From positions 1 through 34,749 of the IMG/VR virus record IMGVR_UViG_3300028392_000173: a stretch of DNA of 34,749 bases, one strand, 5' to 3'. The stretch is from a virus. The notes under the pieces are model-generated. The model did no database searches and was not told the DNA's origin. It was given only the letters and a program-made list of their open reading frames with translations. This document shows, piece by piece, positions 2,713 through 34,132 of the stretch; the first letter of the stretch is position 1; every line of letters starts with the position of its first letter. Both the position numbers and the translations under genes were made by a program.

Positions 2713-3033
2713 TTATACTCTGAAACTTTCCCCGCATCCACAACGGTCTCTCTCGTTTGGATTATTAAATTCAAAACCTTCATTTAATCCATTGCGTACA
2801 AAATCTACAGTCATGCCCTGTACGTATGGAATGCTTTTGGGATCGACATAGAAGATACATCCGCTACAGTCTACTCTTATATCAGTTTCATTTGGATTAT
2901 CTACATATTCAAGTACATATGCTAGACCAGAACAACCTGTTGTTTTAACACCTATTCTTATACCTACGCCCGTACCTCGTTTTGTAAGGGTTTGATTAAC
3001 CTTTTTTGCGGCTTTATCGGTCAGTGTTATCAT
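2713..3033 (-). CDS. iscA: A-type iron-sulfur carrier (IscA/ErpA-like)
   Basis: A 106-residue protein of normal IscA length, collinear with bacterial IscA from MITLTDKAAKKV to the end. All three conserved cluster-binding cysteines are present: Cys34 in TTGCSGLAYVLE, and Cys98 and Cys100 in CGCGESF. The family accepts Fe-S clusters from a scaffold and hands them to apo-enzymes. I chose ATG 3033 over an in-frame TTG at 3054 because it matches the family start and lies 5 nt after a perfect late -10 box, so the mRNA is probably leaderless. Two SPASM radical SAM proteins in this window (23325-24350, 33011-34132) are plausible clients, but that link is inferred. Family assignment is very secure. 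Confidence 0.93.
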   Translation of the reverse strand: MITLTDKAAKKVNQTLTKRGTGVGIRIGVKTTGCSGLAYVLEYVDNPNETDIRVDCSGCIFYVDPKSIPYVQGMTVDFVRNGLNEGFEFNNPNERDRCGCGESFRV

Positions 3034-3038
3034 AGATG

Positions 3039-3046
3039 TATTTATA
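3039..3046 (-). promoter_or_regulatory. Perfect T4 late promoter box, leaderless spacing, iscA
   Basis: TATAAATA, an exact match to the T4 late consensus, ends 5 nt before ATG 3033. Since late transcription starts about 6 nt after the box, +1 would fall on the A of the ATG. The TAA stop of the upstream gene (3042-3044) lies inside the box. Confidence 0.8.
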
Positions 3047-3899
3047 GGCCCCAACGGTTCTTGATAATATTATAAAATCCATCTGCTATAAATTGCTGAC
3101 CTTCTATGCTAGTATGATAGCCGGGATCATTTGGGCCATATGGATCTTTTGGAGTAGAGCCAGGTGGGGGCATAATGCAAAACACGCTGTAAGGATTTTT
3201 TTTATCATCATCCAATATATATATCTCATCAATCACATTAGTTAATGCTTCTTTCATATAGTTAATATGGGGCCACAATGAGTAACCGGTGTTGATTAAA
3301 AATGGTATATTATTTGCTTGTAATTGAACTAGCCCATCTCGTATAATCCATTCATCCATTTGTCTTTTCCAAGAACCATCATATATGTAATTAATATACA
3401 TTTCTAATGCTGTTTGCACTTCAGGCAGGACAGGTTGATTAAGTCTATATGGATGATGGTGATTATCTGCCAATGAGTGTATGGTTTCTACTATCAACCT
3501 AGAATAATTATTACCATAATTTATATTATCTAAGCCTGCATCTTTGTAATATGACTTACCATCATCTTTTTTAAAAGTGTCATATATTACAGGTCGCAAC
3601 AACATATCCATCAAGATATGTGTCAACTTACTAAAATCAAGTTTAGTCTTTTCCTTAATAAAATTAGGAATTTCTATTCTGTCATATGAGGTAGGGGTGA
3701 TAATAGCAAAATCAGGTTTTTGTCTGAGTACCTCATCAATTTGAATTCTAATACCACCGTTACTGCAACCCTGTCGAGCAATATTTTGTAAGTTCCAGCC
3801 TAATTTATCTACTAGAATTTCGCTCCACGCTGTACCGTTATATTCTTCTTTAGTGCTGACTGCGCTGAAGCTACAGCCACATACCATAAGTTTTTTCAT
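3042..3899 (-). CDS. SGNH/GDSL-like hydrolase
   Basis: A 285-residue protein with the outline of an SGNH hydrolase. Residues 7-12 (CGCSFS, candidate nucleophile Ser10) take the place of the GDSL block. ITPTSYDR near residue 70 may be a later block, and DPGYH (Asp258, His262) near the C-terminus fits the catalytic Asp-x-x-His pair. Such enzymes remove acyl groups from sugars or lipids. The gene starts one base after the stop of 3900-4220, so it is likely translated with it. It is AT-rich. Two other SGNH-like genes are present at 12134 and 16686, with little likeness beyond the motifs. A role in trimming surface glycans is a guess. Confidence 0.6.
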   Translation of the reverse strand: MKKLMVCGCSFSAVSTKEEYNGTAWSEILVDKLGWNLQNIARQGCSNGGIRIQIDEVLRQKPDFAIITPTSYDRIEIPNFIKEKTKLDFSKLTHILMDMLLRPVIYDTFKKDDGKSYYKDAGLDNINYGNNYSRLIVETIHSLADNHHHPYRLNQPVLPEVQTALEMYINYIYDGSWKRQMDEWIIRDGLVQLQANNIPFLINTGYSLWPHINYMKEALTNVIDEIYILDDDKKNPYSVFCIMPPPGSTPKDPYGPNDPGYHTSIEGQQFIADGFYNIIKNRWGL

Positions 3900-7895: not shown

Positions 7896-9356
7896 TTACC
7901 TCTTCAAACTGTTGAGTAAATTTTTGAGTTTAGAACCCTGAACGTCTACTGCGACCTTTTTATTTAAGGGTTCTAATACTTCACCTGTAGCTTGGTCAAT
8001 AATAGGTTCTGTAGAAACTAACGTAGATTGTGCTCTCACTTGATTCATAATGTCGGTTGGACTAGGACTAGGTCTATACTTTGCTTGTTGATCCGCATAC
8101 CCGTCAGGATCGCTATCACTGATACGCATTGTTTCAATGTCATATTCTAAGTCAATTTTCATACCCACACCCGTTGAACTACGACTTTTCATACATTGAA
8201 TCTGATACTTACCACGCTCACGCATACTGCGACTTGTAAAGATACCAAACACATTATCTGCTGTATTAATTTTACTGATACCACCGGCAATGTGACTGTG
8301 GTCGAATTCAATCTCATCGACTGCACTACGATTCAACTGCGATGCAGTTACTAATAACACGCCCATCTCTTTAGCTAAGTTACGCAATTCTTCTGCAACA
8401 TATTTGTCTTTAATGAACTGATCGTTAGGATTAACTTTAACAGAGACCGGCATAACCAAATCTAAGTAGTCAACCATTACAAAATCAATTTTAATGCCTG
8501 TTTGAATTTGTACTTCTTTTAAGTAAGCACGAATATCATTTACATTACTTTGAGCGGGTAATCCTTTAACACGATACTTTCCTGCTTTTTTACCAACCAT
8601 CTTAACCTTGAGATCGGTAGTGTCAATGTCTTTACGAATTGCTTTAGTACCCATCTGTGTTAACATAGCATCAGTACGCAAACTTGTTAGTTCTTCACTT
8701 AATTCAAGTGTGATGTAGACTCCGCTCATTCCTGCTTGTAACCAGTTCAATGCCAAGTTCATCATTACTAATGACTTACCTGATCCTGAGCCACCTGCAA
8801 AGATGTTAAGTTCACCCCGACTCATACCACCATATAAGATACGATCCATCTGGGGCCAGCCTGTGCTAACTTGTCCGCCTGCGTTGAAGTATTTGTTAAT
8901 ACGACCTTTAGGATCAAAGAAGTAATCTGTACCCATGTCTCGTTGTAAACTAATTTGTACTGCATCTTTGATTAATTTTTCAACAGGACTAAAGTCACCT
9001 TTCTCAAGTAAGTCTGCGGCTTTAAGAATTGCTCTTTCTAGTTCTTGCCGTTTAGTAAATGATTCAAACGCATCAAAGAACCATTCGTTGTGACCTTCAT
9101 TCAGTTCTGGGATAGGTTCTATATCAATTCCAGTCATTGCTTTAACTTGAGTATGATCTGGTAATACTTTGTATTTGTTTGTATGTTCTTTAAATAACTC
9201 TGCGGCAGGTCTCAATGACTTATCAAAGTTTTCGCTGTTCATAATGTTCATAACCCGAGTGTATAATTCGGCGTTAGTCATCATCATTCGTAAAAAGTAC
9301 TTTTGTACTTCCGGGGTATAGTCAATTTGTTTTTTAGAATCCGTTTTGTTTACCAA
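7896..9356 (-). CDS. 41: Replicative DNA helicase gp41 (DnaB-like)
   Basis: Hexameric 5'-3' helicase that unwinds DNA at the fork and works with the primase encoded just upstream. The 486-residue length matches T4 gp41. Visible are an N-terminal helical domain (to about 150), Walker A GGSGSGKS (188-195), ITLELSEEL just after (motif H1a), DFVMVDYLDLV (Walker B, about 293-303), VTASQLNR (motif H3) and a C-terminal sensor region with KSRSSTG. The start is TTG 9356, with AAAGGA 8 nt upstream; the upstream primase frame overlaps it by 23 nt. The family assignment is very secure. Confidence 0.95.
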   Translation of the reverse strand: MVNKTDSKKQIDYTPEVQKYFLRMMMTNAELYTRVMNIMNSENFDKSLRPAAELFKEHTNKYKVLPDHTQVKAMTGIDIEPIPELNEGHNEWFFDAFESFTKRQELERAILKAADLLEKGDFSPVEKLIKDAVQISLQRDMGTDYFFDPKGRINKYFNAGGQVSTGWPQMDRILYGGMSRGELNIFAGGSGSGKSLVMMNLALNWLQAGMSGVYITLELSEELTSLRTDAMLTQMGTKAIRKDIDTTDLKVKMVGKKAGKYRVKGLPAQSNVNDIRAYLKEVQIQTGIKIDFVMVDYLDLVMPVSVKVNPNDQFIKDKYVAEELRNLAKEMGVLLVTASQLNRSAVDEIEFDHSHIAGGISKINTADNVFGIFTSRSMRERGKYQIQCMKSRSSTGVGMKIDLEYDIETMRISDSDPDGYADQQAKYRPSPSPTDIMNQVRAQSTLVSTEPIIDQATGEVLEPLNKKVAVDVQGSKLKNLLNSLKR

Positions 9357-10314
9357 TTTTTTTCCTTTGCATTTCTATTTTAATTTTGCTCATTGTAGCA
9401 GACTGCAATATACTGAGTAGTGTAGGTAGTCTACCATATTTGACAATTGCATCATTAACATCTTTTACGTCCTTGTCCCAGTGTGGGATACTGACGCTAT
9501 AGCCTAGTTGAATAGCCCTCTCACAGGAGTCAAATCCTGTTTTATCACGGTCGGGAACAAAAATGATTTGTCTGTTAAGTTGTGCTAGTAGTTCTGCTTG
9601 GTCATCGTTAATCGTGTTATGAGTTAACGCACAAGCACCTAGACTCAATGCATCAAAGATGCCCTCGACTAGTATACAAACACTTTGATTGGGTTGTTGA
9701 AAATCATATCCAAATACATAACCAGGTTGTTGTTCGTTGATATATTTTGGAATCTTATTGTCTAAGAACCTACTTGTGTGACCAACAATCTTGTTTTTGT
9801 ATGTATAGGGAATGATGATGCGATTTCCCATGCGACTTGATTCGTTGGGAGTGACCATGAAAGGATATTCACTACTACTTATACCTCTTGATTTTAGATA
9901 GTCTACATATATTTTGTGTGATTGATTATTTTGGTCAAGTAGTTCTGCATCGTCAGGCAGCTTATGTTCGTCAAACTTAATTTTAGTTTTCTTTTTAGGT
10001 TGAGTAAAGTCTAGTATATCTTTTTGTTGTAAACTTTCTAAACTCCACTTACTAATCTGCGTATCATCTACTCCGCACCAAGTTAATAGTTGTCGTGTAT
10101 TCTTTGTTAAACTTCTTCCAAGTGTGAACCCACACTTGAACCCACAATTAAAGCAATGGTATAACCAATTAATTGATCCATCAAAATGAACACCACCTCG
10201 GCTTCTGGCATCAGTTTTGTGGCCGCGATGGTTACAACATACAGCATTGAAACTGTGCCATCCACCTTGAGTGAGTTTTTTCTTGCCTGGAATTATAGAC
10301 AGAATATCGAACAT
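9334..10314 (-). CDS. 61: DNA primase gp61 (DnaG-like)
   Basis: Makes RNA primers for lagging-strand synthesis. The N-terminal zinc-binding domain shows Cys26/Cys27-x-His29 and, after a beta segment, HCFNCGFKCG (Cys54, Cys57). The TOPRIM catalytic domain shows ILVEGIFDAL (Glu217, Asp221) and FVPDRDKTG (Asp255, Asp257), followed by KDVNDAI. The length of 326 residues is close to T4 gp61. The gene overlaps gp41, its helicase partner. The ATG at 10314 lies only 6 nt after a sigma70 -10 box, with no room for a ribosome binding site, so the message is predicted to be leaderless. Family assignment is very secure. Confidence 0.94.
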   Translation of the reverse strand: MFDILSIIPGKKKLTQGGWHSFNAVCCNHRGHKTDARSRGGVHFDGSINWLYHCFNCGFKCGFTLGRSLTKNTRQLLTWCGVDDTQISKWSLESLQQKDILDFTQPKKKTKIKFDEHKLPDDAELLDQNNQSHKIYVDYLKSRGISSSEYPFMVTPNESSRMGNRIIIPYTYKNKIVGHTSRFLDNKIPKYINEQQPGYVFGYDFQQPNQSVCILVEGIFDALSLGACALTHNTINDDQAELLAQLNRQIIFVPDRDKTGFDSCERAIQLGYSVSIPHWDKDVKDVNDAIVKYGRLPTLLSILQSATMSKIKIEMQRKKIGKQNGF

Positions 10315-11154: not shown

Positions 11155-11179
11155 AAAATATATTGCCAGGCTACCCGAT

Positions 11180-11187
11180 GATAAATA
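11180..11187 (+). promoter_or_regulatory. T4-type late promoter box, plus strand
   Basis: GATAAATA on the plus strand ends 20 nt before ATG 11208. It is one of only two late promoters pointing right in the window. Confidence 0.7.
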
Positions 11188-11207
11188 TTTCGGTCATAAG
11201 AACAACA

Positions 11208-11588
11208 ATGTTACCTAACGAATTTTTCACAAAACTAACAGAAAACCACCCCTTCATCACCGTGTGCTCCTACGCTAATCAAGATTATGTGGGGATTGTA
11301 CAGAATAGAGATGATGTTGTCACTACTATTTACGATTATGGTGCTATAATCGACCCAATGGCTAAAGAGAAATTCTTAGAATTAGGTGATATATGGTGGT
11401 GGGAATCTAACAGATTGATTCCTATTAATTTATTCCTTAAAGATGAATGGATCATATTCAAGCCATATATACGAACTTTTCACAATAAAAGTCTAACTAT
11501 CGTGCATGGCCCTGCTTGTAGCATAAATGAACTACACAAACGTAGGACAAAACGCCGTAGTATTACGCTTGTGAAACGGATGTTGTAA
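11208..11588 (+). CDS. Small hypothetical late protein on plus strand
   Basis: A 126-residue protein starting MLPNEFFTKLTENHPFITVCSY; the in-frame codons upstream (11163, 11178) lie before or inside the late promoter and are rejected. It contains GDIWWWESNRLIPINLFL, an aromatic-rich segment, and a very basic C-terminus (HKRRTKRRSITLVKR). I do not recognise a family with known function, though the start looks like conserved unnamed proteins of T4-like phages. It is one of two plus-strand genes and converges with the DnaE-like gene, overlapping it by 26 bp at the 3' ends. The basic tail suggests nucleic-acid binding, as an inference only. Confidence 0.65.
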   Translation: MLPNEFFTKLTENHPFITVCSYANQDYVGIVQNRDDVVTTIYDYGAIIDPMAKEKFLELGDIWWWESNRLIPINLFLKDEWIIFKPYIRTFHNKSLTIVHGPACSINELHKRRTKRRSITLVKRML

Positions 11589-12144
11589 GTAAATTCATAT
11601 GTACAACGACTAACTGTGCATAAGCTATAGCATGACTCTTTTTGAAACTATATCCGTCATTCTCACGGTCCCATATAGTTTGACTCACTTCTTTCCAACT
11701 CTTACCAATTAAATGCTTTTTAGCAGGACGAATCAATGCTAAAAACATTGCTAATCTAGGGATACTATCAATTGGCTCAGTCATCTTCTGAATACTTTGA
11801 TAGTGATTTGATAGGTGAATTAATTTCTCAACAAATACTCTATCATTTAGTTTAGACCAATTTGGTTCATACATCAATTCAACTAAATGTGTTTCATCAC
11901 GAACCTGTGAATACACATGCACATTCAACAAGTCTAGTTTGAAATATCCACGTTTTTCTGCGTCTTCATAATGTAGTGCTGACATATTATTAACAGGATC
12001 ATATGGGATATCTGTTATGTAGACACCAGTATTGTGTCTACGAATAGGAGTGATATTACGCATTGATGCAGGTGTATGTTTGATTAGAGACAGTAGTTTA
12101 TCTCTATCTCCAAAATCTATGTCAATGTCTGAATCAATTCTCAT
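11563..12144 (-). CDS. Miniature DnaE-like protein (C-family polymerase palm motifs)
   Basis: A 193-residue protein with the signature motifs of bacterial DNA polymerase III alpha in the correct order. SDIDIDF (5-11) corresponds to PDIDIDF, which holds two catalytic aspartates; HNTGVYITDIP (37-47) to the HAAGVVI block; YFKLDLLNV (67-75, Asp71) to KxDxLGL with the third catalytic aspartate; YSFKKSHAIAYAQ (165-177) to the FNKSHAxAYA block. The spacers are far shorter than in DnaE (over 1000 residues), and the PHP, fingers and beta-binding domains are missing. It could be a mini-polymerase or terminal transferase, or a decoy of the host enzyme; function is unknown. It is the last gene of the uvsW operon, overlapping the SGNH gene by 11 nt. 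Confidence 0.65.
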   Translation of the reverse strand: MRIDSDIDIDFGDRDKLLSLIKHTPASMRNITPIRRHNTGVYITDIPYDPVNNMSALHYEDAEKRGYFKLDLLNVHVYSQVRDETHLVELMYEPNWSKLNDRVFVEKLIHLSNHYQSIQKMTEPIDSIPRLAMFLALIRPAKKHLIGKSWKEVSQTIWDRENDGYSFKKSHAIAYAQLVVVHMNLLTTSVSQA

Positions 12145-12898
12145 TAAAGAATGTTCCTTTAAAAAATCTATTGTCTTTTTGTAACTGTATCAATTTTGGT
12201 CTTGTTTGCTCGGAATTAAATATCTCTGATATAATTGATGCCAGAACTTTATTATTATCCAATGATAGGTGTGATGCTCGTTTATCAAAAACTTTTCCTT
12301 TAAAACTATCTTTATGTACTAAACCGCGTTGATCCAATAATTCACCAAAACTTACATCTGCTAAACCAGTTAAGCACGGCCCGAATGCTTCCGATATATC
12401 TATATATAAATCTACTAATTTATTATTTGTTGGAAAATCTACATAACTTTGCTCAAAAGGCATTAAGTTAATCAATTTTATATTTGTATCTTTGCACAAT
12501 TTGTTTACACTATTGAAGATATTTTGATATGTAAATAATTGTAACTCCTCAGAATACAATATAGGATGAGCTTCAAGTAATATATCAACATATTTTTTTA
12601 GTGAGTCATCACCGTGCGAATCAAAACCCCCGACATGACCTTTAGGTCTAATAAGAGATAGTTTAGTAAGGTGTTCAGGCAAATAACTCCACCTACTATA
12701 ATGTGAGTATGTAAAAACTATCTTGTCATATTTTTTATAATGTTTTAAAAAAAGTTCATATGACCACCATATAGAAGTAGATGGTTCACCGTAGCATACA
12801 TATCCTTCGTCTAATATCTCTGCTAATAGGCCTGTCCAACTTCGATTTTTGTGGTTATCAACTACTGCAAAACTATCTCCAAATATACCTATTGTCAT
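12134..12898 (-). CDS. SGNH/GDSL-like hydrolase
   Basis: A 254-residue protein that starts MTIGIFGDSFAVVDN, with GDSF (Ser9) as the nucleophile block. FTYSHYSRW (63-70) follows a hydrophobic strand where the glycine/asparagine blocks usually lie. FDKRASHLS (Asp205, His210) is near the C-terminus and could supply the remaining catalytic pair. Such enzymes are esterases or deacetylases of sugars and lipids. Its ATG overlaps the TGA of the exonuclease gene (ATGA), so it is coupled. It is more AT-rich than its neighbours, and its presence inside a replication operon is unexpected, suggesting an inserted accessory gene. Confidence 0.65.
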   Translation of the reverse strand: MTIGIFGDSFAVVDNHKNRSWTGLLAEILDEGYVCYGEPSTSIWWSYELFLKHYKKYDKIVFTYSHYSRWSYLPEHLTKLSLIRPKGHVGGFDSHGDDSLKKYVDILLEAHPILYSEELQLFTYQNIFNSVNKLCKDTNIKLINLMPFEQSYVDFPTNNKLVDLYIDISEAFGPCLTGLADVSFGELLDQRGLVHKDSFKGKVFDKRASHLSLDNNKVLASIISEIFNSEQTRPKLIQLQKDNRFFKGTFFNEN

Positions 12899-13443
12899 TT
12901 TGTCTCCATTAATCCTACTTTAATTAACTTAGTATACGCTTGTTGCACAACAATTGCTTGTCTTTCGGCATCTTCTACAGCTTTGTGTGTCGTAACATGT
13001 CCACCATCTTTTAATTTTACGCCGGCAATATCATACAATGTTCTTGTGTCTCTAATGTCCCAAAAGTTCCACGGTGTGTTTTTATCAAATTGTTTCCAAG
13101 CATGATCCATAACTACTACATCAAAACTTGCACCGTTACTCCATGCACACTTACTACGATTCCAGCAGAATTTGTATAATTGATTCATTGCATTTTCGTA
13201 TGACACACGGTCTCTGTCGCCCATAGCTTCTTCAATTGCTTCTGGACTTTGTTTGCCCCACCATTCCATTGTTGCATCATTGATACTGCGATTGTAAATC
13301 TCTGTTTGATCCTCAATCGTAGGACGAATCTCAATTTTATCAATAATGCCATGACCACGTGGGTCAAATAATACTGCACCAATAGTTAGAATCACACAGT
13401 CTGGTGTTGTGTCTAGTGATTCAATGTCAATCATTACATCCAT
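12895..13443 (-). CDS. dexA: DexA-like 3'-5' exonuclease (DEDD family)
   Basis: A 182-residue exonuclease of the RNase T/DnaQ superfamily, closest in outline to T4 DexA and Rv2179c-like enzymes. Catalytic residues are visible: Asp6 and Glu8 in MIDIESL, Asp108 in NGASFDVVVM, and His153 and Asp158 in THKAVEDAERQA (the DEDDh type). NDATMEWWGKQS is also typical of this group. It would degrade single-stranded DNA or RNA from the 3' end. The gene follows the 13445 gene by one base and shares ATGA with the next SGNH gene. T4 DexA is somewhat longer (about 227 residues). The gene symbol is given by function and context. Confidence 0.85.
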   Translation of the reverse strand: MDVMIDIESLDTTPDCVILTIGAVLFDPRGHGIIDKIEIRPTIEDQTEIYNRSINDATMEWWGKQSPEAIEEAMGDRDRVSYENAMNQLYKFCWNRSKCAWSNGASFDVVVMDHAWKQFDKNTPWNFWDIRDTRTLYDIAGVKLKDGGHVTTHKAVEDAERQAIVVQQAYTKLIKVGLMETK

Positions 13444-20218: not shown

Positions 20219-21223
20219 TTAACCTTTCATACAAGTTGCTTTAGCAAGTTCGCGCCAGTTAGCACTAATCTTAACCAAGTCTGCAACTTTCAAACACATA
20301 CGCAAGGACACTTCACGCAATTTATTGTGATTGTCCCAGATGAACGACATAATTTCGTCTGTCTGTTCTTGCGTGAAATCATATTCAGCAAACAAACCAC
20401 CATCAGCATCCCGATGCACTTGCTTGATACGCAACATTTTGTCACGCTCACTGTCAACTGTCAGGTCCAAAAAGTGACAACGACTTTGCAATGCATCCAA
20501 GTGAGGTTGCATTTTGCCGGCTTTCTTTGCATCAAACGATTTGTTTGTAATGAAAATTACAGAACCGTTGAAGTTGAAACTATTAGGGATACCTTCTTCA
20601 CGCAAAATACGTGAATCTTTGTTCCACGAAATTCTACGTGTCTTGCCTGAATCCAATGCACCTTTTAGTACGTTCAATGCATCCTGATCTTCCCAGATAT
20701 CACAATCATCAAATACCAATACATTTTTAGCATCACTAAATTTGTACAACTTAGCAAACAAGCCAATACCTGACATTGCACCTTTGACAACTTCAAAGCG
20801 AACCTTTTTGCTAGCAAGTCTGTCAAACATACTTGCTTTTTCCATTTGAATGTTCACACCGTGTGACTTACCAATACCTGCAGGACCTGTCACAATCATA
20901 GCACGAATTTCACCACTGATACATGCCTTAGACATTTCATCAAGCACTGCAAAACGTGATGCAATACGGTCCATTGCTTCTGTTTCAGTTTCTTTAGGTG
21001 TCTCTGCTTTGACACTATCACGACCTGACACAAATTCAATCATTGATTGATTGTCAACGTTTACACGAACCTGAGGGCCGCGCCCTGGGAACTGACCTTC
21101 ATTTTTTACTGTCACAAAACCACCTTTATTTCCAAGTTGATAACCTTTAACCAGTGTGAAAACTTCACCTTTGATTGTTTCATTGCGATAAGAACCACTA
21201 GTAATGCGAACGATGCTTGTCAT
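20219..21223 (-). CDS. AAA+ ATPase, early gene
   Basis: A 334-residue ATPase with Walker A GPAGIGKS (113-120), Walker B VLVFDDCD (168-175), SVIFITNKS (sensor 1) and a C-terminal helical lid. The N-terminal 100 residues hold a beta-rich domain (TSIVRITSGSYRNETIKGEVF). It is not gp44-like: the clamp-loader signature (zinc and SRC motif) is absent, although SRC-like QSRC occurs near 255. It has a perfect consensus promoter, a good ribosome binding site (AAAGGAAACAA) and its own terminator, so it is strongly and early expressed alone. It may be a MoxR-like or phage-specific remodelling factor; the target is unknown. Confidence 0.8.
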   Translation of the reverse strand: MTSIVRITSGSYRNETIKGEVFTLVKGYQLGNKGGFVTVKNEGQFPGRGPQVRVNVDNQSMIEFVSGRDSVKAETPKETETEAMDRIASRFAVLDEMSKACISGEIRAMIVTGPAGIGKSHGVNIQMEKASMFDRLASKKVRFEVVKGAMSGIGLFAKLYKFSDAKNVLVFDDCDIWEDQDALNVLKGALDSGKTRRISWNKDSRILREEGIPNSFNFNGSVIFITNKSFDAKKAGKMQPHLDALQSRCHFLDLTVDSERDKMLRIKQVHRDADGGLFAEYDFTQEQTDEIMSFIWDNHNKLREVSLRMCLKVADLVKISANWRELAKATCMKG

Positions 21224-22017: not shown

Positions 22018-23328
22018 ATGAGTAGAATAACAGTAGCCTTTGATTATTTTGCAATCAACTATCCATTAGTTAATAATCAAAATTTTAATCAATCATTATC
22101 TGAATTAATCAGAGATAACGGTACATTTGAATTTTTTAATAAGCTTAGTGGATTTGAATGTAAACCGTCGGTATTATTAAAAGAAATGGATTATTTTATA
22201 TATCCAATTACACTTGGGTTAAATCCTGATGATTGGATTAATCATCCGGAAGTAGATTTATTAGCTACAACTAATATGTCTATTCATACATTTAATGGCA
22301 TAAGAGGCAGAAATGGATTTTTATTTCTTAATTTGGGGAATGAATCTATATTAGATGATTATATTTTAGACACTATACATGCATATTTAAAAACAAAAGA
22401 TATTCCTTTAAGAAAAGTAATATTACAAACAGGTAATGTAAACGGTGAAAAATATTATAAAGATTATTGTTTTAAAAAGCAAATTGAACGAGGGATGAAT
22501 ATATCTTGTTTAGAATATTTCGAATGGTTGTGTAGTAGATTAATGGCAGAACATAAAAATCTTACCCGTGACATACTTACAAAAAATATAGATTTTACTA
22601 AAATAGAAAAAACATTTTTATGCATAAACAGGGCGCATCGTTGGCATCGTATTAACTTATTCATATTATGGCATATTAATAAGTTAATAGAGGATACTTA
22701 CTATACAATGAGTCTTAAATCTAATTTCCCTATAGGGGAAGGATATGATGATCATGTTTGGAGACAAGCAATTGATCGTAATTTGATTGCTAAATTTGAA
22801 TTAACTGAGGAATATATAGATACTATACAAGCAACGTTGCCACTACAAATAGATGAATTTGTCGGTGCATCTGAAATGGCTGGTTTATATGGTGCAATAG
22901 ATCCGTATTATCAAAGTAGTTTAATTAGTATAGTCACTGAAACCAATTTTCAAAATAACGATATTTTTAATACAGAAAAAATATTTAAACCAATGGTCCA
23001 TCGACACCCCTTTATTTTAGTAGGACCACATAAAACATTAGAAAATTTAAAAAATATGGGGTATAAAACATTCAGTGATTTTTGGGATGAATCATATGAT
23101 GATATTGAAGATCCAACTGAACGATTATTAAAAATAGTAGAAATTTGCAAAGATATACATAATTGGGATAATACTAGAAAGAAACAGTTTTTCTATAAAT
23201 CAATGATTATAACTAATCATAATCATGATTTACTAACTTCTCAATATCCTGATAATATGCGTAAAAACTTTTGGCATAGGTTAAGAGATTATGCAACGTT
23301 TGTGCAGGATAAAGACAAATCTATTTAA
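22018..23328 (+). CDS. Glycosyltransferase-like protein on plus strand, AT-rich
   Basis: A 436-residue protein. The C-terminal half contains CINRAHRWHRINLF (about 203-217), then SIVTETNF, NTEKIFKPMVHRHPFILVGP (about 319-338), LKNMGYKTFSDFWDESYDD. The T-E-K-x-F-K-P then PFI-x-x-G pattern resembles the acceptor/nucleotide-sugar region of GT-B transferases such as GT10-type. The gene is markedly richer in A and T than the adjacent early genes and points opposite to nearly all others, which suggests later acquisition. It is late-expressed and leaderless by promoter position. It converges with the radical SAM gene, overlapping 4 bp. Probably modifies a virion or host glycan, unproven. Confidence 0.6.
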   Translation: MSRITVAFDYFAINYPLVNNQNFNQSLSELIRDNGTFEFFNKLSGFECKPSVLLKEMDYFIYPITLGLNPDDWINHPEVDLLATTNMSIHTFNGIRGRNGFLFLNLGNESILDDYILDTIHAYLKTKDIPLRKVILQTGNVNGEKYYKDYCFKKQIERGMNISCLEYFEWLCSRLMAEHKNLTRDILTKNIDFTKIEKTFLCINRAHRWHRINLFILWHINKLIEDTYYTMSLKSNFPIGEGYDDHVWRQAIDRNLIAKFELTEEYIDTIQATLPLQIDEFVGASEMAGLYGAIDPYYQSSLISIVTETNFQNNDIFNTEKIFKPMVHRHPFILVGPHKTLENLKNMGYKTFSDFWDESYDDIEDPTERLLKIVEICKDIHNWDNTRKKQFFYKSMIITNHNHDLLTSQYPDNMRKNFWHRLRDYATFVQDKDKSI

Positions 23329-24350
23329 ATAAATCCCTTAATAACCTGACTATAATCATTAATAGAATTTTGTATTTTATTATTAGTTGAATTGGGTCTG
23401 CATGGTTTACAGAAACTTGTTATAAAATTATCGTAAATTTCTTTGTGTTTATCACTACACCATATATCTCTAAAGTCATCATCGATCCAAGATCCTAGTT
23501 TAGTATCTTCTCTGCCTTTATACTCACAGCATAGATAAATGTTACCATCGGCACAGAAATTAGGAAACAAAAACATCTGATGGCATCGTGTATATGTTCT
23601 TGTGTCATATCTCCCAAGTGATATGTCTGCATTGATTTTATAAAACTCACTTGCAATTTTTATTCTAGTATTGACTTCATCATTCATAATGAAACTATGC
23701 CCATTCAATACCATTGGGCGTAAATGGACTGCACGTGCTTTTACATCTCTTGCATATTCAAATATACTGTTAATTTCTAATTGGCTTGTATTCTCAGGCA
23801 TGAGTAATGCTTTTATATCTAACGGAACACCTTTACTACCTAATTCTTTTGCTGTCTCTTTGACTCTATTGAAGGGACTATCCGACATTTTGCTTTTGCG
23901 TATTAACTCATATGTATCAGGATTCCCGCTGTCAATATCTAAACCTATATAAGCCATTTGCTTTAGTTTATCTGTATCAATTGTCAGTATCTTGTGTAGT
24001 TTTGTGCCGTTAGTATTCATTGCGGCAACATAACCTTTATCAATTACGTCTTCTAATAAATCTTCATATCCAGGAAGTAATGTGGGTTCCCCTCCACCAC
24101 TAAAGATCACATTACTTAATGTTCCTATGACATTACTGTCATACTTACGCCAGTTGTGTAGTCTGTCAATTAATTTAATATATTGTTCCACAGACTGGTA
24201 AACCGGCATATCATTTCTGAATTGCTCGGTGTTACAGTAATAGCAGGCTTGATTGCAGATATTAGTAGTGTCTAAGTCTATCTGCCAGGGTAGTATTTTA
24301 CCGGGTATCTTGCCTTGTATCCAGCGTGAGACTAATTGATATTGATCCAT
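23325..24350 (-). CDS. Radical SAM protein with SPASM-like C-terminus
   Basis: A 341-residue radical SAM protein. The SAM-binding [4Fe-4S] site is CNQACYYC (Cys32, Cys36, Cys39), followed by a GGGEPT motif (about 100-105) and MNTNGT. The C-terminal third carries additional cysteines in FCADGNIYLCCEY, DIWC and FCKPC, as in SPASM/twitch domains that bind auxiliary clusters. Such proteins modify peptides or other small substrates; no substrate peptide gene is obvious nearby. A late-like box (24357-24364) ends 6 nt before the ATG. The Fe-S demand of this protein may be served by the phage iscA. Confidence 0.88.
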   Translation of the reverse strand: MDQYQLVSRWIQGKIPGKILPWQIDLDTTNICNQACYYCNTEQFRNDMPVYQSVEQYIKLIDRLHNWRKYDSNVIGTLSNVIFSGGGEPTLLPGYEDLLEDVIDKGYVAAMNTNGTKLHKILTIDTDKLKQMAYIGLDIDSGNPDTYELIRKSKMSDSPFNRVKETAKELGSKGVPLDIKALLMPENTSQLEINSIFEYARDVKARAVHLRPMVLNGHSFIMNDEVNTRIKIASEFYKINADISLGRYDTRTYTRCHQMFLFPNFCADGNIYLCCEYKGREDTKLGSWIDDDFRDIWCSDKHKEIYDNFITSFCKPCRPNSTNNKIQNSINDYSQVIKGFI

Positions 24351-31470: not shown

Positions 31471-33018
31471 TTAGCTCATCACCGCAAAGAACGGTAGGGG
31501 TGCAATATACTCATCATGGTCACGAATCTGGTTCTCTAAATCAAAATGATAGTCACTCAATTGTTGTAGCATACGTGTTACTAATAAGCTAGCCATAATC
31601 AAATCGTCTGTATCACCTATTTTGGCGGCATAACTGCCCCCGTGTGCTACAAACGCTTTTAACTCACTGATAAGACTACGACTATTTATAGTCATTCTCT
31701 TGCTTTCAACTAGAGTTTTAAATTTGGCACAGCTTGCTAACTTACTCTTGTTCGTTGTATTGAATCCTCTACGACCTTTACCAGTTTCACTAATAAAGAC
31801 ACCCGGAATACCCGATTCTCCGTATTCGTTTAATGATACAATTGCGGCTTCTCCAATACCGTTACACTCAATACTGTAATAGATGTTGTTGGGCTCACCT
31901 GTACATTCTGCTATGTATTTGTTAATCTGAGATAGTAGTTTGATTTGGCTAGGTATATCAGTTTTATTATGTTTCCATTCACCAATCTGCTTAGTTGTGT
32001 TTGCTTCAAAGATTTGAATAGCTGCCGGATCACCGCCTGTACCTAGACTTGGATCTAAACCTACACAATACAAGTTACCCTTTAAAGGAGTGTCATACCA
32101 ACGAACTTGTCCTATACGTTTAACGGGCTCAATCCCTTCCAAAGCAATCAATGTATTTGGATTAATCAGTGTTTCATCAGCGATAATGAACTCACAACCA
32201 ATTTCTCGGTTGAAACGATCTTCACCGAGTTGTGCTTTTATTTCATCAGCCCACTTTTGATCTCTTCCGGGTTGTTCACTCCAATGCGCTCTATACGCTC
32301 TGAAGCCATTGACACCTAATTCTGTTGTGTTACCAAAATCATCTTCTGTCTTGTTAGCACCCTTCCAAATATAAGCAAATTGATCCTCATCACTGTTTGG
32401 TGTACTTGTGATAATAGCTTTACCACCAGTACTTAGTGTGGGTGTGATAGCTGTCCAGAATTCCTTAGCAATACTTGGTCTAACGAATGCAAACTCGTCA
32501 AGATATAATAGTGTGATAGACATACCACGACCTGTATTTTCAGTAGTTGTAGCACTAACAATACGACTACCGTTTTCAAAGTCTAATGAGCCTTTGTTGT
32601 ATGTTGTTACACCTGCTTTAATATAGTCAGGACAGTTTTCGTATGCATAACGTATACGTTGCATAATCTCCTGTGCACCTGTATACTTATGTGCCGCAAC
32701 TAAGATAGTACTATCAGGTACAAACATGGCGTACCAGAGTAGATATCCTGCGGCTGAAGTTGATTTACCTGATTGTCGTGGCATCAATGAGATTGAAAAT
32801 CTATAATTATGATAGGTTTCAATCAATCGTTTTTGATAGGACCACGGATGATAAACCATACTCCCTTTAGTAGGGTGTTGTATGATAAAGAAGTTATCCA
32901 TAAAGTATAGATAACCTGTATCAGGGTCACAGCATTTTATAAAATCCTGTAGTTCTTTATCAGTTTTAAAAACTGTTTTGGTATAAGGATTCTTTACTAG
33001 TGACGGTGCGTTACTCAT
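31471..33018 (-). CDS. 17: Large terminase subunit gp17
   Basis: Motor and nuclease that cuts and packages phage DNA. The 515-residue protein has RQSGKS (Walker A-type, 81-86), LLYLDEFAF (Walker B with catalytic Glu, 170-178), a coupling segment ITSTPNS, and the C-terminal RNase H-like nuclease: GLDPSLG (first Asp, about 329), YYSIECNGIGEA and DTDDLIMASLLV (last Asp pair). T4 gp17 is 610 residues, so this is shorter, as in other T4-like relatives. The ATG overlaps the upstream radical SAM stop by 8 nt and lies 6 nt after a perfect late promoter box, so the late message would be leaderless. Confidence 0.95.
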   Translation of the reverse strand: MSNAPSLVKNPYTKTVFKTDKELQDFIKCCDPDTGYLYFMDNFFIIQHPTKGSMVYHPWSYQKRLIETYHNYRFSISLMPRQSGKSTSAAGYLLWYAMFVPDSTILVAAHKYTGAQEIMQRIRYAYENCPDYIKAGVTTYNKGSLDFENGSRIVSATTTENTGRGMSITLLYLDEFAFVRPSIAKEFWTAITPTLSTGGKAIITSTPNSDEDQFAYIWKGANKTEDDFGNTTELGVNGFRAYRAHWSEQPGRDQKWADEIKAQLGEDRFNREIGCEFIIADETLINPNTLIALEGIEPVKRIGQVRWYDTPLKGNLYCVGLDPSLGTGGDPAAIQIFEANTTKQIGEWKHNKTDIPSQIKLLSQINKYIAECTGEPNNIYYSIECNGIGEAAIVSLNEYGESGIPGVFISETGKGRRGFNTTNKSKLASCAKFKTLVESKRMTINSRSLISELKAFVAHGGSYAAKIGDTDDLIMASLLVTRMLQQLSDYHFDLENQIRDHDEYIAPLPFFAVMS

Positions 33019-34132
33019 AGTGAATATTTATAAGTTTATACAGATCTGGGAAAACATATTGGCTATTCAGTTTCCTATCACTATCAAATTTTTTTAACCG
33101 CTCTAATACAGTATTGATGTTTGGTTTATATTCTTCATTAATTTTATTTAATAAAGTTTGGTAAGTATTTTTTTCAGTTCCAGTATCTATTTTCAATTTT
33201 AAAAAATTTTTAATATCCTCTAATTGTTCCGTTGGTAAGTGTCTTGGATCTAACCAATATCCGGCCTTCCCACTTACATATGTTATAGTAAATGAAACAA
33301 ATCCATTATTTTTTAATAAGTTGATACAATCAAAAATACTTTTATAATTTAGTATGGTATAGACCATGTTAAATGTAATATCATGACCTTCAATTTTTTT
33401 TAATTCTAATAAGTTGTGATAAAAATTATCCCAAGTACCCGGCCATCTGATATAGTTGTATCGGTCTCCTATATCTTCAACACTTACAATCCAACAAACA
33501 TTTTTAAATTTTAACAGTAAATCATAAATCTTGTTATTTTTAATTTGCGATAGGTTAGTGTTTACGAATATTTGAACATTTGGATTTACTTCCAGTAGTT
33601 TTTGTAAAATTATTTCATTTTCTTTAATCAATAATGGTTCACCACCGGCAAGCATAACATCATTTAATGTTGTTGCATTTGTTAAAATATATTCAATTAG
33701 GTCAGTGCGTGTCTCTGATTCAATGTTTATATAAGAATTGTTGTTAATTGAAGCCCAAAGTGAGCTGAGTTCAGGGCCACAATATATACACGCATAGTTA
33801 CATGTATTTCTAAATCGTAAATCAGCAAGTCTTAATTCAAAATTACCTTCATTTTGATAGAAAGATTTATTTGGTAGATATTTTTCAAATTTTTTTACCA
33901 TAGTTTTTTTAAAACTATCTGGTCCTATTTTACAATTCGAACAACCTTTAGGTAATTTGTTTTCTAAAATTTCTTTTTGTATTAATTTATGTCTGTCATT
34001 GTTTAAGATATCTGACACAGTATCTTTGTTCAAATTACCTAATGTATCTTTAGACACACAGCACGGCTTTACTAATCCACTAGGGCTAGTATATATACTG
34101 GTCCAAGGGGCTGGACAAAAATTATCACTCAT
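33011..34132 (-). CDS. Radical SAM protein with N-terminal SPASM-like cysteines
   Basis: A 373-residue protein. The N-terminus has FCPAPWTSIYTSPSG then VKPCCVS (Cys6, Cys24, Cys25) and KGCSNCKIG, a SPASM/twitch-like auxiliary cluster region placed before, not after, the radical SAM domain. The SAM site is CNYACIYC (Cys111, Cys115, Cys118), followed by LAGGEPLL (about 161-168). Thus the order of domains is the reverse of 23325-24350. It is AT-rich, late by promoter, and directly upstream of the terminase gene, which it overlaps by 8 nt. Substrate unknown; a peptide, nucleotide or sugar modification is possible. Confidence 0.85.
   Translation of the reverse strand: MSDNFCPAPWTSIYTSPSGLVKPCCVSKDTLGNLNKDTVSDILNNDRHKLIQKEILENKLPKGCSNCKIGPDSFKKTMVKKFEKYLPNKSFYQNEGNFELRLADLRFRNTCNYACIYCGPELSSLWASINNNSYINIESETRTDLIEYILTNATTLNDVMLAGGEPLLIKENEIILQKLLEVNPNVQIFVNTNLSQIKNNKIYDLLLKFKNVCWIVSVEDIGDRYNYIRWPGTWDNFYHNLLELKKIEGHDITFNMVYTILNYKSIFDCINLLKNNGFVSFTITYVSGKAGYWLDPRHLPTEQLEDIKNFLKLKIDTGTEKNTYQTLLNKINEEYKPNINTVLERLKKFDSDRKLNSQYVFPDLYKLINIHYE
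33025..33032 (-). promoter_or_regulatory. Perfect T4 late promoter box for the terminase gene
   Basis: TATAAATA followed by T, fully inside the 3' end of the radical SAM gene, ends 6 nt before ATG 33018. Confidence 0.8.

Follow-up and report, generated by a model that had tools for sequence, protein, structure and literature searches.

The gene at positions 11563 to 12144 on the minus strand of the window, by which we mean the whole 34,749-nucleotide stretch of viral DNA analyzed here, is very likely the C-terminal unit (C unit) of a minimal DNA polymerase of the C family (DnaE type) that is made as two proteins. Its partner, the N unit, is encoded elsewhere in the same phage. The homology of the pair to DnaE, the tiling of the two halves, their co-occurrence, their conservation and their gene order were all observed directly.

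Identification of a DnaE-type protein in the window

The open frame of 193 residues runs on the minus strand from an ATG at 12144 to a stop at 11563, and the same interval read forward on the plus strand contains many stops. The protein matched phrog_11778, a family annotated as "DNA polymerase" (E 7.6e-58). A sequence-only reading of this DNA had recognized four catalytic motifs of DnaE in a protein of this small size, and all four were found in the order it gave, in a gene on the minus strand. SDIDIDF (residues 5 to 11, codons at 12112 to 12132, minus strand) carries Asp6 and Asp8, the equivalents of E. coli D401 and D403, and is followed by HNTGVYI (residues 37 to 43). YFKLDLL (residues 67 to 73, codons at 11926 to 11946, minus strand) was aligned by hhalign to KFDFLGL, with Lys69 and Asp71 corresponding to E. 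coli K553 and D555, and FKKSHAIAYA (residues 167 to 176, codons at 11617 to 11646, minus strand) corresponds to FNKSHS at E. coli 756 to 761. A fifth motif absent from that first list, LALIRPAK, occupies residues 135 to 142. PDFDVDF and KFDFLGL lie at residues 400 to 406 and 553 to 559 of E. coli DnaE, and the shortened spacing of the aspartates noticed in the same reading was borne out, with 63 residues from Asp8 to Asp71 compared with 152 in the E. coli protein (D403 to D555). The distance from Asp8 to His37 is similarly reduced, at 29 residues in 105 of 125 C units compared with 108 in E. coli (D403 to H511).

Judged by sequence comparison, the similarity of the C unit to DnaE is thin. Searches with the window protein alone gave no match in Pfam and nothing useful in the PDB, and we therefore built family profiles. 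A profile of 82 C units searched against 177,635 PDB sequences gave seven matches at E ≤10, each of them weak (E 0.37 to 1.7). As all seven were DnaE, the likeness is not due to chance. PF17657 was matched weakly, by 6 of the 82 family members at E ≤0.01. Against E. coli DnaE alone, the profile scored 11.3 bits, and the best of 200 shuffled copies scored 4.1. The HMM-HMM comparison that had been proposed as a check aligned the C unit by hhalign to a set of seven DnaE proteins with a probability of 80% (E 1.4e-5, score 49.1 versus 15.2 for reversed sequences); with E. coli DnaE alone, the probability was 12%.

An AlphaFold2 model of the C unit had a mean pLDDT of 93.2 and a pTM of 0.84. The best eleven Foldseek matches to this model were all DnaE chains (E 0.0067 to 0.46), with no match at E ≤0.001. 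VIA-align ranked 12 DnaE or PolC entries first (Z 6.4 to 9.9, 179 to 190 residues aligned), and the best unrelated chain reached a Z of 3.4. In the five best entries, all DnaE, 186 to 190 of the 193 residues were superposed with Z scores of 8.5 to 9.9, so that the predicted fold does show a likeness to the palm. Residues 1 to 193 of the model correspond to residues 397 to 784 of E. coli DnaE, 458 to 841 of the Taq enzyme, 416 to 811 of the Mtb enzyme and 967 to 1304 of PolC. The C unit is a true relative of DNA polymerase III alpha with large deletions.

Two of the earlier descriptions needed amending. The protein had been described as devoid of PHP, fingers and clamp-binding parts, but the fingers are kept: the model aligns through the DnaE fingers region up to E. 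coli residue 784, where the C-family fingers motifs are present as RPxK and FKKSH, both invariant or nearly so. The rest of that description stood, since nothing follows DnaE residue 784, at which the alignment ends, and Pfam detected no PHP or HhH domain in three N units, five C units or the 82 C units. It had also been said to keep a C-family palm. The DnaE-type kinship holds, but this palm is incomplete, as its GxGRGS stretch is encoded by a separate phage gene. The palm signature of DnaE (PDxDxDF, KxD and GRGS) is present in the N and C units together and not in the C unit alone.

The missing half of the active site is a second phage protein

The window protein begins at residue 397 of E. 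coli DnaE and the GPGRGS motif of the palm lies before this point, at residues 359 to 364; the C unit is thus half an active site. The missing half with GRGS is a second phage protein of approximately 173 residues, represented by CBB_328 (172 residues) and by a 173-residue protein (L087:1330-1848) on contig G001, whose 10,579 fetched nucleotides match the window at 100% identity. On G001 the C unit occupies 122,948 to 123,523 and the N unit 166,673 to 167,176, approximately 43 kb away. Neither tblastn nor the profile found an N unit in the 34.7-kb window.

All three N units scanned matched PF07733 above the Pfam cut-off. A profile of the N unit retrieved DnaE from the PDB, aligned to E. coli residues 322 to 392 (E 0.008), and scored 19.0 bits against E. 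coli DnaE alone, compared with 1.2 for the best of 200 shuffled copies. In the model of the N unit (pLDDT 88.0), residues 74 to 173 correspond to E. coli 278 to 393, Taq 296 to 455 and Mtb 307 to 413, and residues 67 to 173 to PolC 820 to 964. The alignments to the E. coli and Mtb entries had Z scores of 9.4 to 12.1, and the 15 entries listed were all DnaE or PolC, with 90 to 97 of the 173 residues aligned. Residues 1 to 66 matched nothing in the structure comparison. From the ranges of the two units on the E. coli, Taq, Mtb and PolC proteins, the models abut with a gap of 2 to 3 residues.

We aligned six joined N+C pairs with the seven DnaE proteins by hhalign. The joined pair scored 102.8 (E 2.3e-12), compared with 87.6 when the units were joined in the order C+N and 22.1 against reversed DnaE, and the N unit alone scored 73.2 versus 16.5 reversed. 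With default settings, the alignment of the joined pair covered 185 columns and spanned the junction. The cut between the halves falls at E. coli DnaE 393/397. The N unit ends 2 or 3 residues past Phe171 in 87 of 89 distinct sequences, and the C unit begins 5 to 7 residues before Asp6 in 111 of 125, a count for which the start codon nearest the match was taken, with some annotated starts, as in RaK2, lying further upstream. The C side of the junction is less firm for that reason. No fused form was found among 164 C and 112 N frames closed at both ends, the longest complete frames being of 246 and 241 residues, and fusion therefore provides no argument for an interaction of the two proteins.

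Conservation and selection

Asp10, His37, Gly40, Lys69, Asp71, Arg139, Pro140, Lys142, Lys168 and His171 were invariant in the 125 distinct C units. Phe167 was present in 124 of them, as were Asp6 and Asp8, the remaining sequence being cut by a contig end before these two aspartates. The three putative catalytic aspartates singled out in the sequence-only reading are thus kept among homologues, Asp71 in 125 of 125 and Asp6 and Asp8 in each of the 124 whose sequence extends over them. Among the N units (89 distinct sequences), the invariant residues were W138, G139 and G141-R142-G143-S144-S145. These counts cover sequences of at least 100 residues, which leaves out eight N frames shorter than 60, and they come from a set fetched in part with the motif patterns DIDID and IRP, which favors intact motifs; when the window protein was aligned to five phage proteins gathered without that filter, the same positions were invariant.

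Purifying selection on the C unit is strong. Its dN/dS was 0.034 to 0.125 in ten comparisons with near relatives, which remained of 14 tried after one identical to the window gene, two of unequal length and one duplicate were left out.

The two units occur together in large phages

By tblastn, the C unit was found in 63 of 50,697 phage records (the union of two listings of 60 rows each). They include RaK2, 121Q, PBECO4, CBB, GAP32, PA5oct and their relatives, Atu_ph07, Phosso, XacN1 and SCTP-2, together with one Vibrio, two Stenotrophomonas and two Alishewanella phages. Relatives of the C unit in viral contigs numbered at least 435 in one search and at least 497 in another. A search of plasmids with the C unit of Phosso gave no match. 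In bacterial genomes we found ten loci, one of which matched over just 20 residues where a contig ends; all ten are in records titled as metagenome-assembled genomes and may be phage contigs that were placed in bins.

With the CBB protein as the query, tblastn detected the N unit in 60 of the 63 C-bearing records, among the matches listed, and every N-bearing record among the matches listed (60 of 68) also carried a C unit. The eight other matches included weak ones in two "Bacteriophage sp." records (E 4e-4 and 8e-4). The three C-bearing records outside the N listing are the two Alishewanella phages and a 109-kb record that is shorter than its relatives of approximately 350 kb. The profile found the N unit in the 141-kb Alishewanella phage Slicko01, and organism counts suggest that both Alishewanella phages carry it.

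Nineteen larger records gave a similar picture. In 13 chosen for the C unit, the N unit (PF07733) was present in 11, and all six chosen for the N unit had the C unit. The two of the 13 that lacked it are the C-bearing contigs G021 and G022 (195 and 222 kb). No N unit was found by profile on these or on G005 to G007 (88 to 121 kb), all of which may be fragments. Single-sequence searches detected the N unit on 6 of 12 other contigs, which may likewise be fragmentary. A family B polymerase was present in 17 of the 19 larger records, in agreement with the earlier remark that this C-family palm occurs beside a family B enzyme, although that agreement comes from relatives: none was found on the 174-kb contig G001 of the same phage, nor on G021.

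Gene neighborhoods of the two units

The C unit lies upstream of replication genes on the same strand, a gp61-type DNA primase (9334 to 10314, minus strand; phrog_47, E 5.3e-37) and a gp41-type replicative helicase (7896 to 9356, minus strand; phrog_19, E 9.4e-68). Wherever at least 4.5 kb of downstream sequence was available (35 of 35 distinct C units), both were present there on the same strand, as scored with a primase query set that took in an unannotated Vibrio phage protein from the primase position. When only 2.9 kb of room was required, the primase was downstream of 72 of 95 distinct C units and the helicase of 59 of 95. In five annotated phages, the helicase was annotated downstream in all five and the primase before it in three, with an unannotated protein in the primase place in the other two. 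The gene uvsW was found upstream of the C unit in 17 of 31 cases.

Between the C unit and the primase gene sits a convergent gene (11163 to 11588, plus strand; phrog_11637, E 1.2e-29), with no Pfam match, whose 3' end overlaps that of the C unit by 26 nucleotides. Of 154 C-unit loci that extend at least 600 nucleotides downstream, loci not being de-duplicated, 140 had a homologue of this gene, and the 3' ends overlapped in 117 of these 140; the profile used took in the Alishewanella neighbor, which does not clearly align. We regard this link as one of association only.

Around the N unit, a groES-like gene (L087:2218-2595 on G001) comes next after 88 of the 91 distinct N units, and a clamp loader gene lies within approximately 3 kb downstream in 53 of 79. 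The link between groES and the N unit is fixed, for no evident reason.

Interrupted dnaE genes in other phages

We surveyed phage dnaE genes for comparable splits in the best 60 of 1364 records and examined six with signs of a split. Four actinophages were cut after the PHP domain, and Satyr and phi13:1 (two of the six) near the same catalytic motif as the pair described here. Taken together, the dnaE genes of the Lactobacillus phages Satyr and ATCC 8014-B2 and of Cellulophaga phage phi13:1 are interrupted at or next to this motif (E. coli 397 to 402). Satyr and phi13:1 differ from the present phage in having a full-size polymerase with PHP and HhH. In Satyr, the break (L342:2960-4030) separates the codon of the first catalytic Asp from that of the next residue. 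The insert encodes a homing endonuclease (phrog_314, NUMOD3) and has two matches to group I introns that fall short of the gathering score (E 0.0017 and 0.0097). It is likely an intron; dnaE is whole in P1, a relative of Satyr. The dnaE gene of ATCC 8014-B2 is in two parts with another gene between them, and in phi13:1 two adjacent genes meet at E. coli 397/398, with approximately 52 and 17 extra residues at their ends. That dnaE is interrupted at this motif in other phages as well suggests that the split may have begun with a mobile element inserted at the catalytic codons.

A 557-residue, unsplit C-family polymerase with no PHP domain by eye was also observed (L291:520-2190, minus strand) on a 337-kb contig that has the N and C units as well.

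Proposed function and alternatives

We propose that the N unit would supply the palm's first half, whose GxGRGSS loop would hold the incoming triphosphate, and that the C unit would supply Asp6, Asp8 and Asp71, binding Mg2+ (two metal ions), and Lys69. The core fingers motifs of the C unit, RPxK and FKKSH, would hold the incoming nucleotide. The roles of GRGSS, the aspartates, RPxK and FKKSH are presumed here to be those in DnaE and PolC structures. The two units would associate non-covalently into one active site. That they associate physically we consider highly likely, and the pair probably has DNA polymerase activity. Because most of the thumb is gone and the PHP, HhH, OB and clamp-binding parts are absent, the enzyme would be expected to act over short stretches with low processivity, alongside the family B replicase. 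The role that we favor for it would be the extension of gp61 primers or the filling of gaps, because the gene of the C unit neighbors those of the primase and helicase, and the gene of the N unit that of the clamp loader. Our choice of primer extension over repair is a tentative one, with repair close behind.

A point against a two-protein polymerase is that the little thumb that remains leaves DNA binding without an explanation. The large deletions that separate the protein from DnaE, among them the loss of everything beyond residue 784, would also fit a two-part nucleotidyltransferase that descends from the C family but has ceased to be a DNA polymerase and acts on another substrate (tRNA, protein or a DNA end) or senses nucleotides, the nucleotidyltransferase fold being one that serves many substrates. 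RPxK and FKKSH are nevertheless kept about as strictly as the aspartates, and the C unit adjoins primase and helicase genes; we find this alternative unlikely. The same deletions could be those of a decaying remnant of an acquired dnaE gene, a reading that the dN/dS values of 0.034 to 0.125 in ten comparisons contradict and that, with at least 497 relatives in viral contigs and invariant catalytic residues, we find scarcely credible.

The functions first suggested for the gene all treat the C unit as acting without a phage partner, and none found support. The fragment-like homology to host DnaE would suit a protein that mimics or inhibits the host replicase in a dominant-negative way, binding parts of the host enzyme. 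Such a mimic need not keep a whole active site and would need no second phage gene, yet the partner half co-occurs, the catalytic positions are intact in the 125 distinct homologues wherever these are complete and purifying selection on the C unit is strong, which makes a mimic very improbable. The three retained aspartates speak in turn for the C unit working by itself, as a template-independent polymerase or a primer-end factor. As the C unit lacks the GRGS half of the fold, which a separate gene of the same phage encodes, and as the N and C genes travel together, the likelihood of this is slight, less even than that of a mimic.

The preferred reading thus remains the two-protein polymerase. 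If it is true, a C-family polymerase cut through its active site would be the smallest known to us, and would reveal how little of DnaE catalysis needs. It would also raise the question of a second polymerase in T4-like jumbo phages, with a C-family core beside the family B replicase. In a fuller scenario, a templated polymerase with one site made from two proteins would have stayed split in phages of great diversity and would act after the gp61 primase and before the family B replicase, extending primers much as Pol alpha does; the split would have been begun by a mobile intron or homing element at the DNA of the catalytic motif, a spot struck independently in other phage dnaE genes. Taken as a whole, this scenario is doubtful.

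Comparison with known split and unsplit polymerases

The phage pair shares the palm and fingers core fold and the order of motifs with bacterial DnaE and PolC (E. coli 2hnh, Taq 3e0d, Mtb 5lew, PolC 9qpc and 9qrl). It has 366 residues in two chains (173 and 193), in contrast to the single chain of 1160 residues of E. coli DnaE, and it is without most of the thumb and all later parts; a PHP domain was not found.

In cyanobacteria, the dnaE gene is in two distant pieces whose products are joined by a split intein, the cut being at the FNKSH motif. The distance between the two pieces is common to both systems, but the phage cut lies instead between E. coli residues 393 and 397. No split-intein halves were found at the junction: the N unit has no tail beyond its end 2 to 3 residues past Phe171 (87 of 89). 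On the less firm C side, frames measured from stop to stop have 194 to 226 residues (19 records), leaving little room for an intein before the motif.

A split of the present kind has already been described. Iyer et al. 2021 (PMC7824862) report that group 2.2 jumbo phages have a phage-specific minimal Pol III alpha beside a family B enzyme, and that its two parts come from genes far apart: an N-terminal protein that binds NTP and a C-terminal one that binds Mg2+ and the template. They suggest that it serves in strand synthesis or repair and that it resembles ancestral forms. The window gene therefore joins a known kind, with two separate and far-apart genes, a family B enzyme beside them in most of the larger records and no other Pol III domains; nothing essential differs here. 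Compared with that work, the present phage is an uncultured one known from IMG/VR contigs, the junction was mapped to residues, conservation and gene order were counted, and the same pair was also found in Slicko01. The exact junction, the counted gene order with the convergent neighbor and the interruptions of other dnaE genes are possibly new.

CBB_328, which is an N unit, had earlier been described as a truncated Pol III alpha, and gp316 of Atu_ph07 is probably an N unit too. A survey of marine jumbo phages gives PF07733 in 51.9% of one group. Three polymerase terms had no occurrence in PMC13282480, and our literature search found no experiment on the N+C pair.

Other genes of the window

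The second gene upstream of the C unit (12895 to 13443, minus strand) encodes an Rv2179c-type 3'-5' exoribonuclease (PF16473, E 1.8e-33). An AAA protein of phrog_1250, a family with no assigned function, is encoded at 20219 to 21223 (minus strand) and has a weak clamp-loader likeness. The window also contains a phage-borne gene for an Fe-S cluster biosynthesis protein (2713 to 3054, minus strand; PF01521, E 2.4e-19). Two SPASM-domain radical SAM proteins are encoded in this one phage fragment, at 23325 to 24350 and 33011 to 34132, both on the minus strand.
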